Origin: Xenorhabdus ishibashii
GTDB lineage: Bacteria; Pseudomonadota; Gammaproteobacteria; Enterobacterales; Enterobacteriaceae
Reading direction: 5' to 3'
DNA length: 64,000 bases
Assembly: GCF_002632755.1 (NCBI RefSeq)
Contig: NZ_NJAK01000001.1
Location: forward strand, 2,294,001-2,358,000
Below are positions 17,797-48,063 of this stretch, piece after piece. A program made the position numbers and the translations under genes. Below the pieces are notes generated by a model that saw nothing but the letters and a program-made list of their open reading frames with translations, was not told the origin of the DNA and made no database searches. Each line of letters opens with the position of its first letter. The stretch's first letter is position 1.

Positions 17797-18687
17797 ATGA
17801 ATAAAGAAACGAAAAAACCAAGGATAGCAATAGTCGGTCCTGGTAGTATTGGACTAGACTTAATGTATAAAATAAAAAAAAATAACAAATTTGAAATTGC
17901 ATTCGTTGTTGGAAGGAATAAGAATAGCGAAGGGATAAAAATAGCTCGAAACGAAGGTGTTGAGGTTTCATATGACGGAATTGAATTTATAAAAGAACAT
18001 ATTGATTACTTTGATTTAGTATTTGATGCAACATCAGCTATTTCTCATAGCTATCACAACAAAACATTTTCAGAGCACAATAAATTTGCAATAGATTTAA
18101 CCCCAGCAAAAATAGGTAAATTATGCGTCCCGGCAATTAATTTAGATGAAACTAAAAATGCACAAAACGTAAATTTAATCACTTGTGGAGGACAGTCCAG
18201 TTTACCTATAGCTTGGGCAATATCAAAATTTTCTCAATATATTGATTATATAGAAGTCGTATCTACGATTGCTGCCAAAAGTGCAGGTCTCGCTACAAGA
18301 CAGAATATTGATGAATATATAACAACAACAGAGTGTGCATTAAAAAAATTCTCAGGTGCTCAAACAGTTAAAGCTATATTGAATATTAATCCGGCAAAAC
18401 CAGAAATATACATGCAAACGACTTTATACGTAAAAGCAAAGTATGATTGTTTTTCAAAAATAAGTGAAGAAATAAAAAAAATAATAAAGTCTGTCCAATC
18501 TTATATACCAGGCTATCAGTTGGAGTACGAACCAATAATTCGTAATGATGAAATTATAATTAATGTTAGTGTCAGAGGTAGTGGTGATTACTTACCGTCT
18601 TATGCAGGTAATTTAGACATTATCAATTGTGCAGCTATTTCTGTTGCAGAATATAAGCTCAACCTAAAAAATGAGATCTGCTTATGA
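17797..18687 (+). CDS. Acylating acetaldehyde dehydrogenase-like enzyme (MhpF/DmpF family)
   Basis: This family interconverts acyl-CoA and aldehyde with NAD and CoA. 296 residues: Rossmann motif VGPGSIGLDLM at about 14, the catalytic cysteine in NLITCGGQSSLPIA near 125, STIAAKSAGLATRQNIDEY near 155, and the C-terminal DYLPSYAGNLDIINCAA. All core residues seem intact; it is slightly shorter than MhpF (316). It overlaps the aldolase gene by four bases (ATGA), typical of the channelled dehydrogenase-aldolase pair. No ring-cleavage, hydratase or other meta-pathway gene is present, and NRPS-type genes follow, so an anabolic role (making an aldehyde for aldol addition) is inferred. The gene is visibly AT-rich compared with its neighbours to the left. 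Confidence 0.88.
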   Translation: MNKETKKPRIAIVGPGSIGLDLMYKIKKNNKFEIAFVVGRNKNSEGIKIARNEGVEVSYDGIEFIKEHIDYFDLVFDATSAISHSYHNKTFSEHNKFAIDLTPAKIGKLCVPAINLDETKNAQNVNLITCGGQSSLPIAWAISKFSQYIDYIEVVSTIAAKSAGLATRQNIDEYITTTECALKKFSGAQTVKAILNINPAKPEIYMQTTLYVKAKYDCFSKISEEIKKIIKSVQSYIPGYQLEYEPIIRNDEIIINVSVRGSGDYLPSYAGNLDIINCAAISVAEYKLNLKNEICL

Positions 18688-19685
18688 AGATATTAATTAG
18701 TGACTCCACTTTACGCGATGGCAACCATGCTGTACGTCATCAGTTGACAACCGAGCAGATAAAAGCATATGCAAGGAAAGCTGAAGAATCTCATTTAGAT
18801 ATAGTGGAAGTTGGTCATGGCAATGGTTTAGGGGCCTCATCAAGTTTACTTGGTCATTCCGCAGAATGCGATATTGATATGTTAGCTGCAGCACGTAGTC
18901 AGCTAAAAAAAACACTTTTAGGAATTCATTTTATCCCTGGTTTTGGCAAATCATCTGACATAGATGATGCTGTATCGGTTGGAGTAGATGTTCTAAGAAT
19001 TGCCAGTCATTGTACTGAAGCAAATACCACATTACGATATATAGAACAGGGTAAGAGTAATAACAAACTAGTTTTTGGCGTCTTAATGATGTCCCACATG
19101 GCTACCACCGAAATTCTTATCGAACAAGCTTCTTTAATGGAAAAATACGGAGCTGATGGGATTATTTTGATGGACAGTGCTGGGTATTATATTCCTACAA
19201 TGGTCAGGGAAAGAATTAAGGCATTAGTTAACCATTTAAACGTACAGGTTGGTTTTCATGCTCATAATAATTTAGGCTTGGCTGTAGCAAATTCTTTAGC
19301 GGCAGCTGAAGAGGGAGCATCTATTATCGATGCTTGTATTATGGGATTTGGCGCAGGGGCTGGTAATACTCAGCTTGAAAATTTAATTGCTGTTTTGGAA
19401 CGTTATCACTTTGATATAAACACTTCATTTGAAATAATTACTAAAACATTACCTGATGCAATTAAAATTATATCTCACGAAACTCCTCACATTAAATTTT
19501 CTAATATTGCAAGTGGATTATATGGGTTATTCTCAGGTTATGTACCCCATGTTCAACGTGCAGCAAAAGAATTTAACGTAAACGAATTTGATTTATATCG
19601 TTCTTTATCAGGGCGAAATTTAATTGCAGGTCAGGAAGATATAATCATAGAAGAGGCAATAAAACTCTCGAATAATAAATCTTAG
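18684..19685 (+). CDS. 4-hydroxy-2-oxovalerate aldolase-like enzyme (MhpE/DmpG family)
   Basis: Metal-dependent class II aldolase of the HMG-like fold; cleaves or forms 4-hydroxy-2-oxo acids from pyruvate and an aldehyde. 333 residues. STLRDGNHAVRHQ holds the conserved Arg-Asp pair and the catalytic histidine near residue 12-20; GFHAHNNLGLAVANS holds the metal histidines near 195; DACIMGFGAGAGNTQLE follows. The C-terminal communication domain that docks the dehydrogenase is present. It is translationally coupled to the preceding gene. In this context it could build a 4-hydroxy-2-oxo acid that a housekeeping transaminase turns into a 4-hydroxy-amino acid (inference). Confidence 0.88.
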   Translation: MKILISDSTLRDGNHAVRHQLTTEQIKAYARKAEESHLDIVEVGHGNGLGASSSLLGHSAECDIDMLAAARSQLKKTLLGIHFIPGFGKSSDIDDAVSVGVDVLRIASHCTEANTTLRYIEQGKSNNKLVFGVLMMSHMATTEILIEQASLMEKYGADGIILMDSAGYYIPTMVRERIKALVNHLNVQVGFHAHNNLGLAVANSLAAAEEGASIIDACIMGFGAGAGNTQLENLIAVLERYHFDINTSFEIITKTLPDAIKIISHETPHIKFSNIASGLYGLFSGYVPHVQRAAKEFNVNEFDLYRSLSGRNLIAGQEDIIIEEAIKLSNNKS

Positions 19686-19718
19686 TATCTATCTGAAAAC
19701 TGAGTGAGGAGTATAATA

Positions 19719-21266
19719 ATGACTATAGATTTTTTCCAACCAAAGTTAGTTCACTTAATGTTTGAGGAGCAAGCTCTTAAGACGCCACATAGAAACGCAG
19801 TCATACAGGGTAGTGGGTCTGTCTCTTATAGAGAATTAAATGAATTATCCAATAAATTGTCTCATCATCTACTAGCCTTAGGTGTTGAAAAAGGTGATAG
19901 TATTGGAATTTGTTTTTATCCTTGTATAAATACGTTGGTATGCATCCTTGCTATATTAAAAATCGGTGCGGCATATGTTCCTTTCGACCCCATGAATCCA
20001 TCTGAAAGATTAATTCTTATTAGCAACCAACTAGATAACTTAAGGTATATTATTACTAATTCCGAAACGCATGATTACTTTAGGTCAGATAAAAAACAAA
20101 TAATATTGACAGATGATTTATTTAGCCATATTAAAAACTGTTCTAATGAAAATCCGGCTATCGATATGGATGAGGATAACATCTGTTATATTGTATTTAC
20201 TTCAGGAACAACTGGCACACCTAAAGCTGTTGCTGTAAAACATAGTGGTTGGGCGAATCTTTTAAATTGGTTTGAGAAAAAATACAAATTAGATAGCGAA
20301 TCTGTGAATGTACTAGTCAGTTCATTTGGCTTTGATATTTCTCAACGAAGCATGTTATCTTCACTTTATGTAGGTTCAACTCTTATTATTAGTGAAAGTA
20401 AGCACTTTGATCCTATATTAATAGGTGAGTTGATTAATAAGTACCATGCCAAAACATTACATCTTGCACCAAGCTCTCTTTATTCTATTATTGAAGCTTG
20501 GGAAGACATTAATAGTTTGCCATCCCTACGCCATCTATTTATTGGAGGCGAGGCTCTCTCTGTTCCTCGAATTTCAAATTGGACTGCAAATGAAAACCGA
20601 CTCTGCAATTTTATTCACCAATATGGTGTTGCAGAATGTACCGATGTAGCAACGTCATATACTATGAATAACTTTAATTCCTATTTGAATAACGGAATAC
20701 CTTTAGGTGAAGCGGTATCTAACTGTAATATATATGTTTTAGACGAAGAACTAAATTCAGTTAATATTGGAGATATTGGCGAGTTAGTGATTACTGGAGA
20801 TGGTATTGGTGCTGGTTACGTAAATAATAGTGAGTTAAATTCAGAAAGATTTATAAAAATTAAAATTGACTCAAAATTAGTCAATGCATATCGCACTGGT
20901 GATTTCGCAAGAATAAGGAACGATGGAGAAATTATTTGCATTGGTAGAAAGGATAATCAGATAAAGATAAGAGGTATCCTTACAAATTTATCAGATATTG
21001 AAAGTGTCGTGAAATCATGTAACAGTGAAATTAAAGAGGCCATAGTTGTCCCATATCATGAAAATGAATCGGACATAAGGTTGTGCATTTTTCTTTATAC
21101 AGATATGGATGAAGCTTTAAGGCCAGAAATAAAGAAAATAAAAAGTGGCATCATTAATAAGTTACCAAAGCACATGCTGCCAAATAAATTTCAATGGCTT
21201 GATTCATTTCCTTTGACTACAAATGGGAAAGTGAATAGAAACGCATTATCGAATTTAATAATTTGA
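19719..21266 (+). CDS. Stand-alone NRPS adenylation enzyme
   Basis: Activates an amino acid as its adenylate and loads it on a carrier protein. 515 residues from ATG 19719 (Shine-Dalgarno GAGGAG). Core motifs: A3 VFTSGTTGTPKAV, A4 with FDIS (the aspartate that binds the alpha-amino group), A5 as YGVAEC instead of the usual YGPTE, A7 YRTGDFARI, A8 GRKDNQIKIRG, and A10 lysine in NGKVNRNAL. No condensation or carrier domain is fused. Hand alignment to GrsA gives the pocket code D-I-R-H-F-G-Q-D-V-K, which I cannot assign. The gene is 33 bases upstream of the SyrB2-like gene, and the free carrier protein is two genes downstream. Confidence 0.9.
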   Translation: MTIDFFQPKLVHLMFEEQALKTPHRNAVIQGSGSVSYRELNELSNKLSHHLLALGVEKGDSIGICFYPCINTLVCILAILKIGAAYVPFDPMNPSERLILISNQLDNLRYIITNSETHDYFRSDKKQIILTDDLFSHIKNCSNENPAIDMDEDNICYIVFTSGTTGTPKAVAVKHSGWANLLNWFEKKYKLDSESVNVLVSSFGFDISQRSMLSSLYVGSTLIISESKHFDPILIGELINKYHAKTLHLAPSSLYSIIEAWEDINSLPSLRHLFIGGEALSVPRISNWTANENRLCNFIHQYGVAECTDVATSYTMNNFNSYLNNGIPLGEAVSNCNIYVLDEELNSVNIGDIGELVITGDGIGAGYVNNSELNSERFIKIKIDSKLVNAYRTGDFARIRNDGEIICIGRKDNQIKIRGILTNLSDIESVVKSCNSEIKEAIVVPYHENESDIRLCIFLYTDMDEALRPEIKKIKSGIINKLPKHMLPNKFQWLDSFPLTTNGKVNRNALSNLII

Positions 21267-21299
21267 ACTTAAGACAAATCTAAGAAATGGGAAAATATA

Positions 21300-22232
21300 A
21301 TGAATAGTAATAATTTTGCCTCAACAACTGGTCTAGCGAAAAATGCAGAAATTCCAGAGGATATTAAAGAAGATATTGTTAAATTTGAAAAATATGGTTT
21401 TATTGGGCCAATAAAACTTTATGAGCCAGAAGAGGCAGGAGAAATTCTACGAGCACTCAGATTGGCTAATCATGACCGTTCTCATATTTTGTACGACAAC
21501 AATATGAATTATGATAGGCATTTTGATATTCCTGAGTTATCAAAACATATCATGCACCCAACAATTGTTAAATACTTAAAGGCTATTCTTGGTCCAGATC
21601 TTCTTTGCTGGCGTTCTGAATGGTTTGCAAAGTTCCCAGGTGCAACTGGAACTGAGTGGCACCAGGTTCGTGACTATAGCTATACTGATGGTAATCCGTT
21701 AATTGTACCTACAGAAACTAGTTGGAACGCATTTATTGATTTAACGGTTTGGACTGCATTTACTCCAGCAAAAATCGAAACTGCTTGCATGCGATTTTTG
21801 CCAGGTTCTCATTATAAATATTATTATGATGAGAAAAAGAATGTAAAAACTGGCCGCTCAGGTGACTATAGCCATATGGAAACAGATACAGGTTTCTTTG
21901 GTTATGATTTCTCCGAATTTAAGGTTGATCCCTCTTGGGATCCAGAAGGTGCTAACCCCGTCGATATGGAACTTAATGCAGGTGAATGCGTTATTTTTAC
22001 AGCATCATGTGCTCATGCCTCTCATCCTAATATTACTGACAGAGAAACTCGTTTGGCAATTTCTGGTCGATATGTGCCTACACATGTCAGAGTTTATCCA
22101 AACCTAGATTCTTATAATGCTCACGGTGAAACATTTAATCTTGAAAACTATGCAACAGTTTTAGTCAGTGGTGAGGATCGATACGAACACAATAAAATCA
22201 GAACTACTAATAATCGTGGTGTTAAATTTTAG
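21300..22232 (+). CDS. SyrB2-like non-heme Fe/2-oxoglutarate oxygenase or halogenase with an HQV motif
   Basis: PhyH-fold enzyme of 310 residues that resembles the carrier-protein-dependent chlorinase SyrB2 along its length (for example LLCWRSEWFAKFPG, TVWTAFT, GFFGYDF and SRYVP-like GRYVP). SyrB2 numbering is from memory. Iron ligands are H121 in EWHQVRD and H239 in CAHASHPN; the 2-oxoglutarate arginine is R257. Hydroxylases have Asp at the third ligand position and halogenases Ala or Gly; here it is Val123. A carboxylate is therefore absent, as in halogenases, but the side chain is larger than expected. The likely substrate is the aminoacyl group on the carrier protein encoded 19 bases downstream. 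Whether it chlorinates, hydroxylates or does another reaction is open. Confidence 0.87.
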   Translation: MNSNNFASTTGLAKNAEIPEDIKEDIVKFEKYGFIGPIKLYEPEEAGEILRALRLANHDRSHILYDNNMNYDRHFDIPELSKHIMHPTIVKYLKAILGPDLLCWRSEWFAKFPGATGTEWHQVRDYSYTDGNPLIVPTETSWNAFIDLTVWTAFTPAKIETACMRFLPGSHYKYYYDEKKNVKTGRSGDYSHMETDTGFFGYDFSEFKVDPSWDPEGANPVDMELNAGECVIFTASCAHASHPNITDRETRLAISGRYVPTHVRVYPNLDSYNAHGETFNLENYATVLVSGEDRYEHNKIRTTNNRGVKF

Positions 22233-22251
22233 TTTAATAAAAGGTTAAATT

Positions 22252-22458
22252 ATGAAAGATAAAATTAAAAAAATATATTCGGAAGAGCTCAATTATCCAG
22301 CGTTATCAGAGCAAGACGATTTTTATGATGTCGGAGGTCATTCTTTAATTATGACTAAAATAAGAAAAAGATTTATATCAGAATTGAACTTAAATGTTCC
22401 GATAGATAGTTTGTTCAGATATTTGACAGTGGAAAGTTTATATAACCATATAAAATAA
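22252..22458 (+). CDS. Free-standing peptidyl carrier protein
   Basis: 68-residue acidic carrier protein with the phosphopantetheine site DVGGHSL (Ser at about residue 32). It would hold the amino acid as a thioester for the oxygenase. It needs a phosphopantetheinyl transferase that is not in this window. It is the last gene before the terminator at 22465. SyrB1 has A and T domains fused; here they are separate, as with CmaD in coronamic acid synthesis. Confidence 0.9.
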   Translation: MKDKIKKIYSEELNYPALSEQDDFYDVGGHSLIMTKIRKRFISELNLNVPIDSLFRYLTVESLYNHIK

Positions 22459-22464
22459 TGTATG

Positions 22465-22512
22465 AAAATTGCAGCTTGTCATGCTCAATATACATGAAAG
22501 TTGCAATTTTTA
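22465..22512 (+). terminator. Terminator after the carrier protein gene
   Basis: Outer stem AAAATTGCA/TGCAATTTT with inner pairing CTTGTCATG/CATGAAAG and a T-run at the 3' side, six bases after the stop. It separates the first five genes of the island from the export/release genes. The rest of the 309-base gap is very AT-rich and may hold a promoter. Confidence 0.7.
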
Positions 22513-22767
22513 CTAAATAGCATTTCATAATAGTGAGAGTCTCATTTTTTTATGTTTGTTTTAATATGTTATGTGATTAGTGTTTTAAGAGAATTTTCAC
22601 ATATATGATAAGTGACTATGTATACTATAGTTTGTGATATAAAATATTTACAAAAATAGGACTGAGTTTCAGATGGTTGTTATTATTTTGGGAATATATT
22701 TTTGTGATATTTAATTTGTAAATTAAATGATTTTTATTGATTTAATCTATTAACTTAGAGAGGTTTT

Positions 22768-23379
22768 ATGGAAATATTTCTTTATACGCTTGGTGTAATG
22801 TATAGCCCTGGTCCTGTTAACTTTATGGGTATGAATGCAGGTCTAACAGGTCAATTTAAAAAAACAATTGGTTTTTTTATTGGCGTAGGCTGTGCAATGT
22901 TAACGTTATTTATATTGTTGGGGTATGCAGGGGAAGCTATTATCTCTCATAAGTATCTTCCTTATATTTCATTGCTTGGGGCTTTGTATACATTTTATCT
23001 TTCATTTAAAATGGTGACATCTAATATACAATTGAATAAAGGAGATGGAAGCATTGGATCTGATAAAACCCTGACGTTTTGGAATGGTTTTTTGATTCAA
23101 GTGTTAAATCCCAAAGGCGTGCTTGTAGTCTTACCTGTCACTACGATTATGTATCCTGCTGCTCATATTACAGGGCCAATGATATTTTTGGTATCGGTAT
23201 TGATTTCAATTGGTGGAGCAGGCGCACCTGGACTTTATTCATTCTTTGGTGTAGTTATTGGTAAACAGATAAAAAATGATTCCTGGCTTAATATTATAAA
23301 TAAAGTAATGGGAGTGCTGCTGGCTATTGTTGCCATTTTTATGGCATATGATTTTTTTGTCGGTGTTAACTTAATATAA
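22768..23379 (+). CDS. LysE/RhtB family exporter, first of two
   Basis: Inner-membrane amino-acid exporter of 203 residues with about six hydrophobic segments. The N-terminal SPGPVNFMGMNAGLTG and NPKGVLVVLPV are the family signatures. GAGAGG precedes ATG 22768. LysE-type proteins export free amino acids or their analogues, and AmbA in the P. aeruginosa AMB cluster is of this type. Its presence within this cluster suggests the product is a small amino acid-like compound. Confidence 0.88.
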   Translation: MEIFLYTLGVMYSPGPVNFMGMNAGLTGQFKKTIGFFIGVGCAMLTLFILLGYAGEAIISHKYLPYISLLGALYTFYLSFKMVTSNIQLNKGDGSIGSDKTLTFWNGFLIQVLNPKGVLVVLPVTTIMYPAAHITGPMIFLVSVLISIGGAGAPGLYSFFGVVIGKQIKNDSWLNIINKVMGVLLAIVAIFMAYDFFVGVNLI

Positions 23380-23391
23380 GGTGTGTGTATC

Positions 23392-23787
23392 ATGTCTTCT
23401 ATATTTAAAAGTTTCTTAGTTAATTGGGATGATATACCAAGAGAGAATGTTTCAGAATCTATAGGAAGACAAGTTATTCATGGTGACGAATTAACTATTG
23501 TTAAACTTTATATGAAATCTGGTGCTTGTGTTCAAACACACTCACATCCAAATGAACAATTTACTTGGATATTAACCGGTCATATTCGGTTTCAGTATGG
23601 TGAAGATTTAGAGCATGTTGTTGATTTAAAGTCGGGTGATGTTTTACATTTACCTGCTAATATTCCACATAATGCAACATGTATTGAAGACACAATTGAC
23701 TTCGATATTTTTACTCCTACACGTGAAGATTGGAAACTTCCAACAGGGAATTGTTATTTTTCATCAACAAAGAATGGTTCAAAATAA
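23392..23787 (+). CDS. Single-domain cupin protein of the biosynthetic island
   Basis: 131 residues starting MSSIFKSFLVNWDDIP. The metal-binding pattern is HSHPNEQFTWILTG for the first cupin motif, and PANIPHNATC supplies the last histidine. A gene product acting on the released or carrier-bound modified amino acid is plausible, by analogy with the metal enzyme CmaC that cyclises a chlorinated amino acid in coronamate synthesis, but that comparison is by position only. ATG 23392 is preferred over GTG 23383. The stop overlaps the start of the thioesterase gene (TAATG). Confidence 0.8.
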   Translation: MSSIFKSFLVNWDDIPRENVSESIGRQVIHGDELTIVKLYMKSGACVQTHSHPNEQFTWILTGHIRFQYGEDLEHVVDLKSGDVLHLPANIPHNATCIEDTIDFDIFTPTREDWKLPTGNCYFSSTKNGSK

Positions 23788-24551
23788 TGATGCAGAAAAA
23801 TAAATGGATTTCACATTTCGATGATGTTAAAAAAAATCGACTTAGAATTATTTGTTTTCCATTTGGAGGTGGAGGTGCTTCATCATATCGTTTGTGGCAC
23901 GAACTTTTTGATTCCGATGTTGAAATTTGCCCAGTTCACTTACCTGGTCGAGAAAGTCGATATGGTGAAGAACCATGCTTAGATGCAGATGTTTTAATCA
24001 ATGATCTATTACCAGAATTGTTACCATTACTTAATTGCCCTTCCATCTTTTTTGGATATAGTTTAGGTGCAGCATTAGCATATAAAACTATAGTAGAATG
24101 TTCAAAAATTGTCAGGAATAATAAAATATTGTCTCTAATATGCTGTGCTAGAATTCCTCCTAGCAAAAAAATTGATAATGAATCTCTTACCCAGTTATCT
24201 GAGAAAGAATTCATTGAATATATTCTTTCTTTAGGGGGAATTTCACGTACTATCTTTAATGATCCAGAACTTCGTACAATGGCTTTAAAACTACTGCGTA
24301 GCGATTTTATTTTATCTTCAAGCATTATTGAGCCCGAAGATAAAATGGTAAATATCCCTATCTATGCTATTGGTGGGGATGCTGATCCTTCTGTTTCAAT
24401 TGAGAGTTTGCAAGGATGGAAGAGATGTACAAGTGGTGAGTTTAAGTTTTTCACCTTGCCAGGAGGGCATTTCTTCATGAATGAAAATCCTATTAAATTT
24501 TATGGATTATTGAATGATATTATTTCATTTGAAAAGGCAAAGCTAAGTTAG
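23787..24551 (+). CDS. Type II thioesterase (GrsT-like)
   Basis: Alpha/beta hydrolase of 254 residues that releases acyl or aminoacyl groups from carrier proteins. The N-terminal ICFPFGGGGASSYRLW and LPGRESRYGEE are typical of type II thioesterases; the nucleophile is in GYSLGA and the histidine in PGGHFFMNE. The start at 23787 overlaps the cupin stop codon, giving translational coupling. In a pathway with one A, one T and no condensation domain, this enzyme is the probable release step that frees the finished amino acid. Confidence 0.9.
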   Translation: MMQKNKWISHFDDVKKNRLRIICFPFGGGGASSYRLWHELFDSDVEICPVHLPGRESRYGEEPCLDADVLINDLLPELLPLLNCPSIFFGYSLGAALAYKTIVECSKIVRNNKILSLICCARIPPSKKIDNESLTQLSEKEFIEYILSLGGISRTIFNDPELRTMALKLLRSDFILSSSIIEPEDKMVNIPIYAIGGDADPSVSIESLQGWKRCTSGEFKFFTLPGGHFFMNENPIKFYGLLNDIISFEKAKLS

Positions 24552-24565
24552 ATGTGGAGTTGAAT

Positions 24566-25156
24566 ATGATTTTGGTAAATTCTACTTTAACAATGATAAC
24601 AGGAATTGGTTTTGTTCTTTTAATTCCTGGGCCAACTAATACATTGCTATTGGTTTCAGGATTGAAAAATGGTGTTTTTAAGGCGTCACCTTTAATTATT
24701 GCTGAGGTTTTTGGTTATATTATGGCAATCGGAGTTTGGGGAGTATCTCTATCTACTATACTTAAAGGTGTGTATTGGTTTCCAGAAATAATTAAGGCTT
24801 TATGTTCATTTTACATATTTTACTTGGCAACTAAGGTGTGGTCATATGGTCGGACTTCATATTATGAACATAAAATCTCATTCCCACAGATGGTCTTAGC
24901 TTCAGCGCTAAATCCAAAAGCTATTTTATTTGTTAGTTTATTTATACCTAAGTATTCATTTAATAGTATAAATGAATTCGCTTTTTTAATTTTTTTATTT
25001 ATCATGATTGTGATTCCTATCGGTTTCTTATGGGTTTCATTAGGTGGAATAATAAGGAAACAATCTTCTCAGAACTTATTGTTTATAATATATAAAGTCG
25101 CTTCTGTTATTCTTATGGCGTTCAGTTGTATTTTGTTTTTATCTTTATTGGCGTAA
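24566..25156 (+). CDS. LysE family exporter, second
   Basis: 196-residue membrane protein with the LysE pattern FVLLIPGPTNTLLLVSGLKNG at about 15 and SALNPKAILFVSLF near 120, and six hydrophobic segments. The ATG at 24566 has GGAG five bases upstream; an in-frame GTG at 24554 is less likely. It is clearly different in sequence from the first LysE protein, so the cluster encodes two non-redundant carriers, perhaps for product and precursor or as a self-resistance pair. Confidence 0.85.
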   Translation: MILVNSTLTMITGIGFVLLIPGPTNTLLLVSGLKNGVFKASPLIIAEVFGYIMAIGVWGVSLSTILKGVYWFPEIIKALCSFYIFYLATKVWSYGRTSYYEHKISFPQMVLASALNPKAILFVSLFIPKYSFNSINEFAFLIFLFIMIVIPIGFLWVSLGGIIRKQSSQNLLFIIYKVASVILMAFSCILFLSLLA

Positions 25157-25166
25157 TAAATCTAAA

Positions 25167-25188
25167 GCGCCCTGTCAAAAAAGGGCGC
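25167..25188. terminator. Bidirectional terminator closing the biosynthetic island
   Basis: Stem GCGCCCT/AGGGCGC between two convergent genes, with AT-rich sequence on both sides. Confidence 0.75.
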
Positions 25189-25200
25189 AAATTAATTTAT

Positions 25201-26022
25201 TTAAATATACTTTGCTTTATTTACATTTTTCCAATGTGCTGGTGTTATTCCAAATGTTTTTGTGAAATGTCTTGCCATATGACTTTGATCGAAGAAGCCT
25301 GCGATCAATGAAGCATCAGTAATGGATTCTCCAACAATTAGACAGGATTTTACTACATCTAACCTTCGCATTGTCATATATCGATGAGGACTGGTTCCGA
25401 ATAGTAACCTGAAATCTCTCGAAAGACTCCAGCGATCACGATTTGTGTTGCGTTCAAGTTCATCTAGTGTTACATTTTTATCTAAATTTGAATGAATATA
25501 CTCTCTTGCTCTTTCCGCAGCGAAATAATCAAAATTTCTCTTTCTGTTTAAAGGCGCTCCACTTGCTTCAACTAATGAGATAACCAAATCATAAAGAGCA
25601 TCATCTTCTTCCATAGGATCTATTCTGCAATCCATATTTTGTAATAATGCGTGTGTGGCCCTAAAAATATTAGGATCTTTGGTTATCCCATTTTTTATAA
25701 ATGGTAATGGCTTTCCCTTTATTATTTCTTGTATCATTGATGGTTCAATATATATCATTTGATAATGGAAACCAGCACTAGTTCCAGCCTCGCCATCATG
25801 AATTTCGTCAGGATGCAATATAATAGTGTTACCAGGAAGGCTGTGTTGCATGCGGCCACGATAGTGAAAACTTTGAACTCCAAATAAGGTTTTTCCAATT
25901 GCATAGGTGTCGTGTCTGTGAGGGGAATAGGCATGATTTAAAAAATAAGCTTCTATTCTTTCGACTTTCCTAGTATCGGGTGCCCTGTATACCCAATCTC
26001 GTGATGTAGCCAATCCATACAT
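25201..26022 (-). CDS. AraC family transcriptional regulator
   Basis: 273 residues. The N-terminal cupin-type sensor (AYSPHRHDTYAIGKTLFGVQSF at about 32) is followed by two helix-turn-helix motifs at the C-terminal end (VTLDELERNTNRDRWSLSRDF and ITDASLIAGFFDQSHMARHF). Such AraC proteins often sit next to LysE-type exporter genes. It is convergent with the second LysE gene at the right border of the island. It may respond to the exported amino acid and control the cluster, but it may also belong to the background. GGAG precedes ATG 26022. Confidence 0.88.
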   Translation of the reverse strand: MYGLATSRDWVYRAPDTRKVERIEAYFLNHAYSPHRHDTYAIGKTLFGVQSFHYRGRMQHSLPGNTIILHPDEIHDGEAGTSAGFHYQMIYIEPSMIQEIIKGKPLPFIKNGITKDPNIFRATHALLQNMDCRIDPMEEDDALYDLVISLVEASGAPLNRKRNFDYFAAERAREYIHSNLDKNVTLDELERNTNRDRWSLSRDFRLLFGTSPHRYMTMRRLDVVKSCLIVGESITDASLIAGFFDQSHMARHFTKTFGITPAHWKNVNKAKYI

Positions 26023-26385
26023 ATTAACTCCATATGACAGTTATATTGTAAAATAATTAAAAAATCACTATTTTTTAATAAATTCCTATTCTAATTACAA
26101 TACCTTACATGGAGTAATGATCGGGTAGTTAAGAAGTGAATTGGTTACGGGAACGTCACGCTCAGTGGCACACGTTATGCAGCATAGCGGTTGTAGATTT
26201 TGGCATGAAAAGCAAGCAAAATTATATAGTTATGAAATAAGATATTATATTACCGGCGATTGTGATAAATCGGCTGAATTATCGCTTATACCATACGCGG
26301 TCATTAGGATGTGTAGTGAGATGACTTCTCCCACCCTATAGCAGTAAATTGACAGTGTGTTTTTCTTTTAGAAGAGGCCATCATC

Positions 26386-26484
26386 ATGAACAGTACAGCA
26401 CTTATCGGTATTGATCTAGGTAAACAACTTTCCACCTGCACTGTTAGGATAAAAATGGAAACGCGCTTTATCGTAAGAAAAGGA
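26386..26484 (+). mobile_element. IS110-family transposase remnant (N-terminal start)
   Basis: MNSTALIGIDLGKQ from ATG 26386 is the N-terminal of IS110-type transposases (DEDD first Asp in GIDLG); a +1 shift continues as FHLHC*DKNGNALYRKK. It is cut off at about 26484, where the IS982 remnant begins on the other strand. About 260 bases before it (26141-26385) I see only AT-rich non-coding sequence, probably the 5' end of that element. Confidence 0.6.
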
Positions 26485-26774
26485 ATCAGTGCCCTTTTCT
26501 CCAGAGTGAGCATTCGAGTATAACTGATTAATTCGGGGGGGATGTCGGTAAGGTATTGTTTTACATGTTTATTGTAAAAAGTTTTAAAATCACGATAATG
26601 TCTCATATGGAATAGAATGAGGATCATCATGACTTCGCTGATAGAGCTGAGAGAAAGGGACGCTTCGCGGTGCCGTTTACGTAATTCGTTTTCAATGAGC
26701 AGTTGATGCCAGAGAGGCATAAATTTTTGGCAAAAGTCATCGATGCAACAGTAAAGTTCTTCTAAATTAGACAT
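26485..26774 (-). mobile_element. IS982-family transposase remnant (N-terminal part)
   Basis: From ATG 26774 the reverse strand reads MSNLEELYCCIDDFCQKFMP, then MMILILFHMRHYRDFKTFY and LISYTRMLTLEKRALIPF, the N-terminal third of IS982 transposases. It stops matching at the junction with the IS110 remnant, so the catalytic part is missing and the element is dead. Confidence 0.7.
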
Positions 26775-26855
26775 GCCTGAGGGTCTCCACGATTTTGTTT
26801 TCTTTAGCACGTGCCTCAGGCACTTTAGTTCCCTTCTTAAGCGAAGCTCAGGTTA

Positions 26856-27839
26856 TTAAGGAATAAGCAGGCTGGAACCATGAGTAACGCGACTTTCCAG
26901 CATGCAGTGTGCCTTGATTACCTCACTGAGCGGGAATTTCTGGTTTTCAGGCACGTCAACATTGATTTTTCCGCTGGCAATCAGCTCAAATAACGTTTTA
27001 CTCGCTTCATCTAGCTCTTCACGGGTAGTGACGTAGCCGTTTAACGCTGGGCGGGTTACAAACAGCGAGCCTTTCTGGTTAAGTATTCCCAAATCAACAC
27101 CAGTCACTGGGCCGGAAGTATTGCCAAAACTGACCATTAAGCCTTGTCGTTTCAGGCAATCCAATGAATCCAGCCATGTAGTCTTGCCAACAGAATCATA
27201 AACGACGCTGACTTTTTCCCCTGCCGTGATTTCCGATACGCGTTCAACAATATTTTCGCGCTTATAATTGATGGTCTGCCATGCTCCCGCGGCTTTGGCG
27301 AGAGCTGCTTTCTCATCCGAACTAACTGTACCAATCAATTTAGCACCCAATACTTTTGCCCACTGGCAGGCAATCAGCCCCACTCCTCCCGCTGCGGCAT
27401 GGAACAGAAACGTTTCCCCTGCCTGAATTTTATGGGTTTGTCTGAAAAGATAATAAACAGTCAGTCCCTTCAAAAATGATGCAGCAGCTTGCTCAAACGA
27501 GATGGCGTCCGGCAGCCGTGCTAATTTGCTTTCTGCCACATTATGAACTTCACTGTAAGCACCAAGCCCTGATTGTGCATAAACCACCCGATCGCCAACT
27601 TTAAAAGAGGTTACCTCGGTTCCAATCTTGGTGACAATCCCTGCCGCTTCGGTTCCGATACCGCTGGGCAGATTAGCTGTTGGGTATAACCCGCTGCGCA
27701 TATAGGTATCAATATAGTTAATACCAATGGCTTTATTTTCAACCTGCACTTCGTCAGTAGCTGGGTTAGCAGGGGTAAATTCGCAATATTGGAGTACTTC
27801 AGGGCCTCCGTTAACGGAGAACACGATATGTTTTGCCAT
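26856..27839 (-). CDS. Quinone oxidoreductase (QOR) paralogue, second copy
   Basis: Medium-chain dehydrogenase/reductase of the zeta-crystallin type, 327 residues from ATG 27839 (MAKHIVFSVNGGPEVL), with the NADPH-binding AAAGGVGLIACQWAK near residue 150. It is full length with no visible defect. It aligns along its whole length with the qorA-position gene at 47080-48063 and differs at scattered residues, so it is a diverged duplicate that moved among IS remnants. Both flanks are transposase debris (IS982 side and IS6 side). Confidence 0.9.
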   Translation of the reverse strand: MAKHIVFSVNGGPEVLQYCEFTPANPATDEVQVENKAIGINYIDTYMRSGLYPTANLPSGIGTEAAGIVTKIGTEVTSFKVGDRVVYAQSGLGAYSEVHNVAESKLARLPDAISFEQAAASFLKGLTVYYLFRQTHKIQAGETFLFHAAAGGVGLIACQWAKVLGAKLIGTVSSDEKAALAKAAGAWQTINYKRENIVERVSEITAGEKVSVVYDSVGKTTWLDSLDCLKRQGLMVSFGNTSGPVTGVDLGILNQKGSLFVTRPALNGYVTTREELDEASKTLFELIASGKINVDVPENQKFPLSEVIKAHCMLESRVTHGSSLLIP

Positions 27840-27894
27840 GAATAAGTCTCTAATTATATTATACTTATTGTTTTTCAGGTTACGGTACGTTGTT

Positions 27895-28190
27895 GGTGGC
27901 TGCGCTAGCTCCACTGTTCTTTGATTTTGATATCCGTTTGATCCATTCGCCACCGATGCCCAACCTCAGGCTTGCTCCGCTGATAGCGTTTAACAATCAA
28001 CGGAACCAAACGGTGAACTTAACGAGAGAACGTGGAATGATAAATGGCAATCTCCCACTTAGACATCGTTGCTTCCAGATTACGTCTCAAGATGTAGGTC
28101 AGATCCCCTCGAACGCACTGGATCCTGATATCAACAGGCTAATGCAGGAGCTTGAACGCATTTTGAGTCAGGGCCATCTCCAGTTTCCCT
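27895..28190 (-). mobile_element. IS6-family transposase remnant
   Basis: The reverse strand holds broken but recognisable IS6 sequence: MALTQNAFKLLH*PVDIRIQ, VRGDLTYILRRNLEATMSKW, and RYQRSKPEVGHRWRMDQTDI (the RWRxDxT block with the first catalytic Asp). There are several stops and frame changes. The left end touches the upstream region of the QOR paralogue. Confidence 0.65.
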
Positions 28191-28245: not shown

Positions 28246-28662
28246 TTACTTATGAAGAGATAGTCCTTTTATTGCTTTATCTACAAATTTTTTTGAACCA
28301 TACACAGCAAGGCCAACTAAATTCATATTATCAGCATCTTCTGCTAAAAAAACCTCACGGTTCGCTTCATCATGACCTGTTGAAAACATTGTGTAGACGT
28401 AAGGAACTAAAAGTAGATCTCTCTCCAAGCCTTTCCTATGAACACTTTGAAGTGCCTTAAGATCAGCACCAAAAATAAGCATAGGTTGTCCAGACATACT
28501 CCCATACTTATGACCAGAAGAATCGATATATGGGGTACCTATAATCTCAGATGCCGATGAGGCAACACCCGTTGCGAGGAATGCAACTACATTCAGTTTT
28601 TGCCACGTTTGTAAGTCATCCCGCACTATAAAGGCAATTTTCGTATCAAACATCTTAAACAT
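28246..28662 (-). CDS. DUF2000 family protein
   Basis: 138 residues: KIAFIVRDDLQTWQKLNVVAFLATG at the N-terminus, then SGQPMLIFGADLKALQ and LAVYGSKKFVDKAIKGL at the C-terminus. This is the DUF2000 pattern (peptidyl-tRNA hydrolase II-like fold); no role is established. The start may be 28662 or ATG 28653. It is a solitary gene between an IS6 remnant and another transposase fragment, suggesting it came as cargo. Confidence 0.7.
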   Translation of the reverse strand: MFKMFDTKIAFIVRDDLQTWQKLNVVAFLATGVASSASEIIGTPYIDSSGHKYGSMSGQPMLIFGADLKALQSVHRKGLERDLLLVPYVYTMFSTGHDEANREVFLAEDADNMNLVGLAVYGSKKFVDKAIKGLSLHK

Positions 28663-31815: not shown

Positions 31816-31902
31816 TGGTGCGAAGGGGGGGACTTGAACCCCCACGTCCGTAAGGACACTAACACCTGAAGCTAGCGCGTCTACCAATTCCGCCACCCTC
31901 GC
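31816..31902 (-). tRNA. tRNA-Leu(CAG)
   Basis: 87 bases with encoded CCA. The reverse strand starts GCGAGGGTGGCGGAATTGG, has the anticodon loop around CTTCAGG (CAG), a long class II variable arm (GTCC-TTAC-GGAC), and TTCAAGTCC in the T arm. It matches E. coli leuV-type tRNA. Confidence 0.97.
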
Positions 31903-31948
31903 AGGTACTGCCATTTATCTAATTTGTTTAATTGATAACTATCTGATT

Positions 31949-32035
31949 TGGTGCGAAGGGGGGGACTTGAACCCCCACGTCCGTAAGAACACTAACACCT
32001 GAAGCTAGCGCGTCTACCAATTCCGCCACCCTCGC
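31949..32035 (-). tRNA. tRNA-Leu(CAG), second copy
   Basis: Same as the copy at 31816 except for one base in the variable-arm stem (GTTC-TTAC-GGAC), which turns a C-G pair into a U-G pair. The two genes are 46 bases apart and probably processed from one transcript. Confidence 0.97.
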
Positions 32036-47079: not shown

Positions 47080-48063
47080 TTATGGGATCAATAAGCTGGA
47101 ACCGTGGGTTGCACGGCTTTCCAGTGTCTGATGAGCTTTTACCGCTTCACTCAGTGGAAATTTCTGGTTTTCTGGGACGTCCACATTGATTTTGTCGCTG
47201 GCAATTAAATCAAACAGTGTCTTGCTGGCTTTTGCCAACTCCTCGCGGGTAGTGATATAGCCATTAAGAGAAGGGCGGGTGAGAAATAGTGAACCTTTCT
47301 GATTGAGGATACCCAAATTTACTCCAGTTACCGGCCCTGAAGCGTTACCAAAACTGACCATCAAACCTTGTCGTTTCAGGCAATCCAGTGAATCCAGCCA
47401 TGTCTCTTTGCCAACAGAATCGTATACGACACTAACTTTTTCTCCGCCAGTAATAGCCAAAACACGTTCAACAATATTCTCGCGACGATAGTTGATGGTT
47501 TGCCATGCACCTGCTGCTTTGGCGAGCATCGCTTTTTCGTCTGAACCTACTGTTCCAATCAACTTCGCACCCAGTGCTTCTGCCCACTGGCAAGCAATCA
47601 AGCCAACACCACCGGCGGCGGCATGAAATAAAATGGTTTCTCCTGCCCGGAGCTTATGTGTTAAATTGAACAGATAGTAAACAGTCAAGCCTTTTAAAAA
47701 TGATGCAGCAGCCTGCTCGAACGAGATCTCATCCGGCAACAGTGCTAACTTACTTTCAGAAACATTGTGTATTTCACTGTAAGCACCTAAGGCTGACTGA
47801 GCATAAACCACTCGATCACCGACTTTAATTGATGTCACACTGGAGCCAATTTGAGTGACAATACCAGCGGCTTCTGTTCCCAAGCCACAGGGCAGGCTGG
47901 CTGGTGGGTATAAGCCACTGCGTATGTAGGTATCAATATAATTAATGCCAATGGCTTTGTTTTCGACTTGTACTTCATCAGGAGCAAGGTCAGTAGGTGT
48001 AAATTCACAATATCGGAGTACTTCTGGGCCGCCAATGGCGGATAATTCGATGTGTTTTGCCAT
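47080..48063 (-). CDS. qorA: NADPH:quinone oxidoreductase QorA
   Basis: Zeta-crystallin type reductase of 327 residues, MAKHIELSAIGGPEVLRYCE at the start and the nucleotide-binding AAAGGVGLIACQWAEALGAK near residue 150. Convergent next to dusA, its conserved position, so this is the original copy and the gene at 26856 the duplicate. pspG, which lies between dusA and qorA in E. coli, is missing. Confidence 0.94.
   Translation of the reverse strand: MAKHIELSAIGGPEVLRYCEFTPTDLAPDEVQVENKAIGINYIDTYIRSGLYPPASLPCGLGTEAAGIVTQIGSSVTSIKVGDRVVYAQSALGAYSEIHNVSESKLALLPDEISFEQAAASFLKGLTVYYLFNLTHKLRAGETILFHAAAGGVGLIACQWAEALGAKLIGTVGSDEKAMLAKAAGAWQTINYRRENIVERVLAITGGEKVSVVYDSVGKETWLDSLDCLKRQGLMVSFGNASGPVTGVNLGILNQKGSLFLTRPSLNGYITTREELAKASKTLFDLIASDKINVDVPENQKFPLSEAVKAHQTLESRATHGSSLLIP

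Follow-up and report, generated by a model that had tools for sequence, protein, structure and literature searches.

What do the ten genes between positions 17797 and 26022 of a 64,000-nucleotide stretch of the Xenorhabdus ishibashii genome make? The stretch (from here on the window; C1:2294001-2358000 of genome G000) had been given a sequence-only reading, in which the ten formed one functional cluster on an AT-rich island, building a modified amino acid with a SyrB2-like enzyme and exporting it, perhaps as an antimetabolite. All ten open reading frames (ORFs) are found in the order, on the strands and in the families described there, as borne out by the ORF list, Pfam/NCBIfam profiles and intact signatures. 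The island probably encodes a pathway that tailors an amino acid bound to a carrier protein and exports it as a free leucine antimetabolite; the product is read in this way because a norvaline-like substrate is expected and because sister clusters carry an editing paralog derived from leucyl-tRNA synthetase (LeuRS). Carrier-bound tailoring, release and export, as far as sequence can tell, survive from the earlier reading; its extent was too narrow and its halogenation too bold.

Scores exceed the family cutoffs for the acylating aldehyde dehydrogenase (TIGR03215, 366 against 282 bits), the aldolase (TIGR03217, 317 against 286), the stand-alone adenylation (A) enzyme (AA-adenyl-dom, 332 against 317), the SyrB2-like enzyme (TIGR01762, "chlorinating enzyme", 304 against 226) and both LysE-type exporters (PF01810, 42.9 and 33.1 against 25.6), which are 31% identical to each other; Pfam/NCBIfam also agree on PP-binding, LysE (twice), Cupin_2, Thioesterase and AraC. 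Signatures are intact in the dehydrogenase (Cys motif TCGG), the aldolase (TLRDGNHAVRH) and the A enzyme (NGK), as well as in the carrier (T) protein and the thioesterase (TE; Table 1). The adjacent TIGR03215 and TIGR03217 equivalogs are a DmpFG/MhpEF pair. A, T, SyrB2-like enzyme and TE are each encoded by a gene of their own within one unit, and a Pfam scan of the ten window proteins found no condensation domain: the cluster is a CytC-type tailoring cassette in a variant form, whose supply module is conserved yet swappable.

The cluster genes form a conserved unit. A contig scan gave 30 sister loci, a set enriched for relatives with the motif WHQV of the window's SyrB2-like enzyme (here the HxV enzyme), one of the two search patterns being based on TEWHQV; gene recurrence was assessed by tblastn with the window proteins. 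The order dehydrogenase-aldolase-A-HxV-T recurs in another Xenorhabdus (L001) and in seven Pseudomonas loci (L002-L008), followed where the contig reaches by LysE1-cupin-TE-LysE2-[MDR]-AraC. Frames are broken in L008, and the contig of L003 reaches no further than the carrier and a portion of the editing paralog; the full set is present in two further Pseudomonas genomes found via that paralog (L081, L082). Wherever a Gram-negative locus has an A gene of this family (11 loci, counting the window), pair, SyrB2-like enzyme and carrier occur with it, which bears out the claim of one functional cluster with the aldolase pair as part of it. In each of these 11 aldolases the motif HFIPG stands where 1nvm and 8ih7 have LLLPG, presumably near the aldehyde pocket. 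Conservation within the cluster is highest for the HxV enzyme, about 80-85% identical between window and Pseudomonas, against 52-61% for the pair and 43-47% for intact A genes. The homology search proposed in the sequence-only reading has thus found a conserved unit, but not one unique to the window genome, since L001, Pseudomonas and actinomycetes have versions of it.

In actinomycetes the pair is mostly replaced by a second 2-isopropylmalate synthase (LeuA) and an aminotransferase, so that the supply module is swappable. Nine loci (L009-L012, L014-L016, L029, L072) combine HxV enzyme, T, aminotransferase and a thioesterase or thioesterase-like match with an A gene where the DNA reaches (that of L016 is in L085), and, in most cases, with a cation antiporter and a DMT-family transporter. 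Some or all of these parts are absent from L013 and L017. The other genes do therefore occur without the first two, an eventuality that the sequence-only reading had raised against itself, but they do so with LeuA-type supply in actinomycetes, whereas the 11 Gram-negative loci keep the pair. Likewise, the transaminase it had found missing is indeed lacking among the ten window genes, but the actinomycete version does have an aminotransferase. Seven of ten actinomycete genomes (G106-G109, G112, G113, G126) encode a LeuA of the cluster type, 63-100% identical to the L009 copy, alongside other LeuA copies at 51-55%; six of them carry it on the same contig as the HxV enzyme, and in G108 the two are on separate contigs. 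On a plasmid of Streptomyces sp. NBC_00069, LeuA, LeuB, LeuC and a phosphopantetheinyl transferase are annotated around the same genes, with an ORF resembling LeuD (read by eye) in the LeuB-LeuC gap; LeuA, LeuB and LeuC are also present in L084/L085 (G113). Elongation of 2-oxobutyrate by a LeuABCD-type set gives 2-oxovalerate, and transamination then gives norvaline.

The A enzymes point in a similar direction. With code positions placed via GrsA motifs, the code is DIRLFGQDVK in the window, Xenorhabdus and Pseudomonas and DIRCFG(Q/V)D(V/I)K in actinomycetes, an unusual code that 16 loci have in common with the window; of 25 rows compared, the remaining 8 differ (L020-L023, L025, L026, L030 and the second A gene of L007). 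Across the window and the best 120 of 312 matches, all 121 sequences have the code type D-I/L-R-C/L-x-G-x-D, with the A5 motif YGVAE in 116 and YGVSE in 5. Because the codes are near-identical, the A family probably has one substrate type, norvaline-like. P0344 has an A domain and a SyrB2-like domain on one chain.

A third line comes from self-protection. Nine Pseudomonas loci and three actinomycete clusters contain a LeuRS paralog that keeps the editing domain (PF13603, with the editing-domain fold) and its catalytic Asp but has lost the synthetase motifs: across the family, KMSKS is missing in 113/113 and HxGH in 112/113. Structure alignments to whole LeuRS reach Z 18.8-21.1 but at a root-mean-square deviation of 10-12.5, so only the editing-domain match is firm. 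Norvaline is a classic LeuRS editing substrate, and the paralog is probably a self-protection protein that deacylates tRNA-Leu charged with the product; the antimetabolite idea has gained support from it, insofar as its role can be read from sequence.

Which gene might take this role in Xenorhabdus? The DUF2000 gene of the island is our guess. It occurs in 2/21 Xenorhabdus genomes searched, the two with the cluster (in the second, G020, on a different short contig), and lies near clusters L009, L010, L012, L029 and L072. A whole-genome search found it in 5/19 cluster genomes, none of them with the editing paralog (G020 entering the paralog check as G099, the genome of L001). Counting G000, 11 of 20 cluster genomes have the paralog, six have DUF2000, none has both and three have neither; the probability of such exclusivity by chance is 0.002 for the 20 genomes and 0.17 for the ten actinomycetes only, in lineages that are not independent. 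A Streptomyces genome with no HxV match (G750) has a 90% identical copy. The fold is, we presume, Pth2-like; a DUF2000 profile run against PDB sequences matched 2gax only and did not recover the Pth2 relation.

The pathway would then run as follows. The dehydrogenase would convert acetyl-CoA, or another short acyl-CoA, to an aldehyde, which the aldolase would join to pyruvate, giving a 4-hydroxy-2-oxo acid, most simply 4-hydroxy-2-oxovalerate, as expected from family chemistry. A housekeeping aminotransferase would yield the C5 amino acid 4-hydroxynorvaline, to be loaded onto the T protein by the A enzyme. The HxV enzyme would then chlorinate or otherwise oxidise the tethered side chain at an unactivated carbon; TE would free the amino acid (its predicted role is release or carrier editing), the LysE proteins would export it and the AraC protein would regulate the set. 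In the sister clusters the editing paralog would deacylate product-charged tRNA-Leu. A free leucine analogue that loads on tRNA-Leu would be the simplest product, given the norvaline-type supply, the A/T/oxygenase/TE set without a condensation domain, the exporters and the editing protein. In the Gram-negative version, where the aldolase should leave a 4-hydroxyl, a 4-hydroxynorvaline that has been further oxidised or chlorinated is more likely; the actinomycete end product would likely be gamma-chloronorvaline. It is less likely that the actinomycete A enzymes take leucine itself, LeuABCD then serving just to supply it or to provide a resistant LeuA: the same code recurs in clusters whose acid comes from an aldolase, and L072 and L084/L085 have the B and C genes as well. 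L-cyclopropylalanine, a leucine analogue, inhibits 2-isopropylmalate synthase (PMC6149818); an additional LeuA could thus be a further safeguard for the producer. Two other products were considered and dropped: solanimycin, whose non-ribosomal peptide synthetase (NRPS) model the A enzyme had matched, has no halogenase in the available part of PMC9765074, and furanomycin has a seven-carbon skeleton incompatible with C5 supply.

How well does the enzyme at the centre of the pathway fit a halogenase? Its closest solved structures are CytC3, the best PDB sequence match, and SyrB2, and a predicted model (pLDDT 83) aligns with SyrB2 (2fct_B) at a TM of 0.84, which places it in the SyrB2 fold; like halogenases, it lacks the facial-triad carboxylate. 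In SyrB2, Ala makes room for chloride. WHQV is found in all of the best 120 of 603 homologues; in a set of 40 sequences including the window, enriched for WHQV by the search pattern and with one short match (L035) left out, it is found in 32/32 at at least 44% identity, and WHQA in 8/8 at 43% or less. Two residues ahead of the second His, the 32 WHQV sequences have Cys and the 8 WHQA sequences Leu, which suggests a remodelled pocket. The Val may block the chloride site or shift the chemistry.

Several findings weigh against the pathway as drawn. The window enzyme has WHQV where SyrB2 and CytC3 have WHQA, and so fails the His-x-Ala/Gly feature that defines halogenases; the "SyrB2-like" of the sequence-only reading can therefore not be taken to mean halogenase, and the label "chlorinating enzyme" is likewise unproven for the HxV clade, because Val sits where halogenases have Ala/Gly. 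The two supply routes, by aldolase (4-hydroxy) and by LeuA (plain chain), would be expected to deliver amino acids that differ, while the A codes hardly do, so that the substrate can be given only as a type. Twelve other Gram-negative HxV loci (L018-L028, L030) and one in Nostoc (L073) have neither the pair nor a window-type A gene: the HxV clade as a whole is therefore not tied to this pathway. In the paralog, the threonine-rich TTRPDT motif is changed to a TDWS/TDWT type in 109/113 (four were unmatched by the pattern), so its deacylase activity is not assured, and a search of the window genome found no paralog, only LeuS, ValS and IleS-like matches. DUF2000 is present in 275/392 sampled Streptomyces genomes and the HxV enzyme in only 4/392; because the gene is so common there without the cluster, its role is kept as speculation.

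Could the first two genes be a catabolic MhpEF-type pair that came to lie upstream by chance? Both are clear DmpFG family members, and the pair is absent from the actinomycete clusters and from the 12 other Gram-negative HxV loci; its linkage to this A family in 11/11 loci, with HFIPG in every aldolase and no genes of an aromatic meta-cleavage operon alongside in the window or L004, argues that it is not a stray catabolic operon and makes such an origin highly improbable. It is unlikely, though a good deal less remote, that the cluster supplies an NRPS elsewhere with a building block or with a small peptide or acyl conjugate, the LysE genes exporting side products or a signal. Large A-domain ORFs adjoin HxV relatives in L021 and L023, four A-domain matches do so in Nostoc, an extra A-domain gene lies within a few kb of the cluster in L007 and L082 (a point that also counts against the pathway as drawn), and members of the A family are fused to C or T domains (P0333, P0348); set against this, the ten window proteins lack a condensation domain, exporters and TE recur in Pseudomonas loci not cut by contig ends, and a LeuRS-type editing paralog suits a free amino acid, not a peptide.

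A hydroxylase, desaturase or other oxidase in place of a halogenase would be a branch within the leucine-antimetabolite pathway, not an exclusive alternative, since an oxidised norvaline would still be a leucine mimic. Its prospects seem to us to fall a little short of even: Val for Ala in the homologues counted above and the Cys/Leu switch speak for it, and the kinship with SyrB2 and CytC3, the missing carboxylate and the fit of a known chlorinated leucine analogue to the actinomycete version speak against. Going further, HxV enzymes could be a functionally new two-histidine Fe(II)/2-oxoglutarate class that tailors carrier-bound norvaline-type amino acids, in leucine-mimic producers protected by two interchangeable tRNA-Leu deacylases (the gutted LeuRS paralog in most clusters, DUF2000 in Xenorhabdus and some actinomycetes); we regard this combined proposal as quite unlikely to hold in full.

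The AT-rich segment is an inserted island, absent at the same site in the three relatives compared. It spans about 12.8 kb from the end of puuC (17104) to the start of phoA (29868); in G009, G016 and G020 (loci L090, L091, L088) puuB, a cupin gene, puuC and phoA follow one another directly, the aligned parts of the last two genes lying 0.2-0.3 kb apart, compared with 12.8 kb in the window. The low GC content reported earlier is confirmed, at 29-35% in each 1-kb step of 17-26 kb against mostly 38-50% in the rest of the window, where 48-50 kb and 63-64 kb are also low. G020 carries the cluster (L089, the same stretch as L001) on another contig, and the insertion places in G000 and G020 are therefore different. 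At 95% identity or more, the HxV enzyme is found in these two only among 30 genomes of the genus searched; weaker matches (39-55%, some partial) are in G001, G003, G005 and G019, with one more in G000. Named relatives are X. thailandensis (A enzyme 97%) and Xenorhabdus sp. IM139775; the E. coli genome collection searched gave no match. Beyond the ten genes the island holds, up to 28662, a probable transposase fragment (which we take to be IS982-like), a second qor and the DUF2000 gene, and the end of the cluster itself may lie at about 28.7 kb (Table 1). The second qor has a counterpart in G020 (L087), likewise near a DUF2000 gene, and an MDR gene 39-50% identical to it sits between LysE2 and AraC in six Pseudomonas loci. 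Equivalence to that gene was rejected, identity being 84% to the other Xenorhabdus qor against 48% to the Pseudomonas gene; it appears to be a local duplicate in a position resembling that of the MDR gene.

Table 1. Features of the island in window coordinates
Feature	Position	Strand	Evidence
Acylating acetaldehyde dehydrogenase, DmpF/MhpF/BphJ family	17797..18687	+	TIGR03215 366 bits; PDB 7z3s, 1nvm_B
4-Hydroxy-2-oxoacid aldolase, DmpG/MhpE/BphI family	18684..19685	+	TIGR03217 317 bits; alignment with 1nvm_A, 8ih7
Stand-alone A enzyme	19719..21266	+	AA-adenyl-dom; code DIRLFGQDVK; A5 motif YGVAECTD
SyrB2/CytC3-like Fe(II)/2-oxoglutarate enzyme, HxV clade	21300..22232	+	TIGR01762 304 bits; CytC3 8.6e-71; WHQV
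Stand-alone T protein	22252..22458	+	PF00550; GGHS phosphopantetheine site
Terminator-like hairpin 3' of carrier gene	22463..22512	+	RNA fold -20.3 kcal/mol
LysE-type amino acid exporter 1 (predicted)	22768..23379	+	PF01810; also in Pseudomonas clusters
Small cupin protein	23383..23787	+	PF07883; also in Pseudomonas clusters
Type II TE (predicted)	23787..24551	+	PF00975; GYSLG
LysE-type amino acid exporter 2 (predicted)	24554..25156	+	PF01810
Bidirectional terminator-like hairpin, exporter 2/AraC gap	25167..25188	.	terminator scan and RNA fold
AraC-type regulator	25201..26022	-	PF02311, PF12833; 53-57% identical gene in 7 Pseudomonas loci
Probable transposase fragment	26304..26810	-	sequence; no Pfam match at E 0.001
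Second qor/MDR-type reductase	26856..27953	-	84% identical to copy at 47080-48063
DUF2000 (Atu0240-like) protein	28246..28662	-	PF09391; 2gax 1.4e-39

The ATG start of the A gene was picked by eye (the ORF list has GTG 19704), and the ORF list starts TE at TTG 23730. The terminator proposed between T and LysE1 is a genuine hairpin (z -4.80, 0/200 shuffles equally good), overlooked by the consensus scan because of that scan's loop limit of 8.

Other observations concern the surroundings of the island and related genes elsewhere. The puuC ORF of the window has length 475, against 500-519 (most 502) in 19 relatives with a match, and its 3' end is apparently out of frame at about 17100, just ahead of the island; two tRNA-Leu (CAG) genes lie beyond phoA at 31816-32035. 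A second SyrB2-type gene of G000 (C1:2101459-2102358, minus strand, L037) has an ordinary WHQA, is 41-43% identical and stands beside an A domain; relatives of it are present in G001 and G005. A leuS gene is carried on the 177-kb plasmid record NZ_FO818638 of Xenorhabdus bovienii (match H39). Pseudomonas sp. FEN has two cluster copies in one genome (L002 and L008, one with broken frames). HxV enzymes stand beside A domains of other codes in L021, L023, L025, L026 and L030 (Pseudoduganella, Pectobacterium, Burkholderia, Pandoraea), some of them in very large ORFs, and in Nostoc, as noted, beside several A-domain matches. Relatives of the A enzyme at 66-67% (P0243, P0244) occur in a Salmonella serovar and Klebsiella aerogenes, and one of the HxV enzyme at 91% (P0002) in K. 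aerogenes; from these matches, the cluster may have moved among enterobacteria. The conjugative Salmonella enterica IncI1 plasmid NZ_CP030220 (L074) carries a parallel amino-acid tailoring set: A, T, a SyrB2-type enzyme (WHQA), a DMT transporter, a hydrolase and a phosphopantetheinyl transferase.

The closest known system is CytC1-CytC4 of the cytotrienin producer, which makes gamma,gamma-dichloroaminobutyrate. It shares with the island a stand-alone A, T, SyrB2-type enzyme and TE acting on a short aliphatic amino acid, but is not known to have an aldolase pair, LysE pair or editing paralog, and CytC3 has WHQA. CmaA-CmaT (coronamic acid) and SyrB1/SyrB2/SyrC follow the same logic of carrier-tethered gamma-functionalisation; unlike them, the ten window genes include no CmaC cyclase and no NRPS gene, and the enzyme in a CmaB context (L077) has WHQA. 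LysE export of a non-proteinogenic amino acid recalls the AmbA-type exporter of the AMB cluster, likened by description, not sequence, and with a different assembly logic. AgnB2, a LeuRS of agrocin 84 producers (PDB 5ah5), is likewise a LeuRS paralog used for producer self-protection, but a complete synthetase, whereas the paralog has lost KMSKS and almost always HxGH. CtdA, a canavanyl-tRNA deacylase, is a stand-alone editing protein guarding against an antimetabolite (PMC10018355); it is B3/4-like and acts on tRNA-Arg, whereas the paralog is LeuRS-derived and lies inside a putative producer's biosynthetic cluster. The leucine analogue gamma-chloronorvaline of Streptomyces griseosporeus was reported in 1980 (PMC8659048 and the title of its reference 82) and resembles the actinomycete version in predicted structure class and biological role; the Gram-negative version should differ in bearing a 4-hydroxyl. 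In the literature collection searched, with the terms used, no gene cluster for gamma-chloronorvaline was found and no published cluster of this make-up was recognised.

Through these clusters, a portion of a large SyrB2-like clade without assignment is linked to one kind of substrate; for this clade the automatic label "chlorinating enzyme" may mislead. Its actinomycete relatives offer a concrete gene candidate for the leucine analogue reported in 1980, and the sister clusters probably represent a new kind of self-protection: the proposal is that a synthetase reduced to its editing function would serve as self-resistance inside an antimetabolite cluster.

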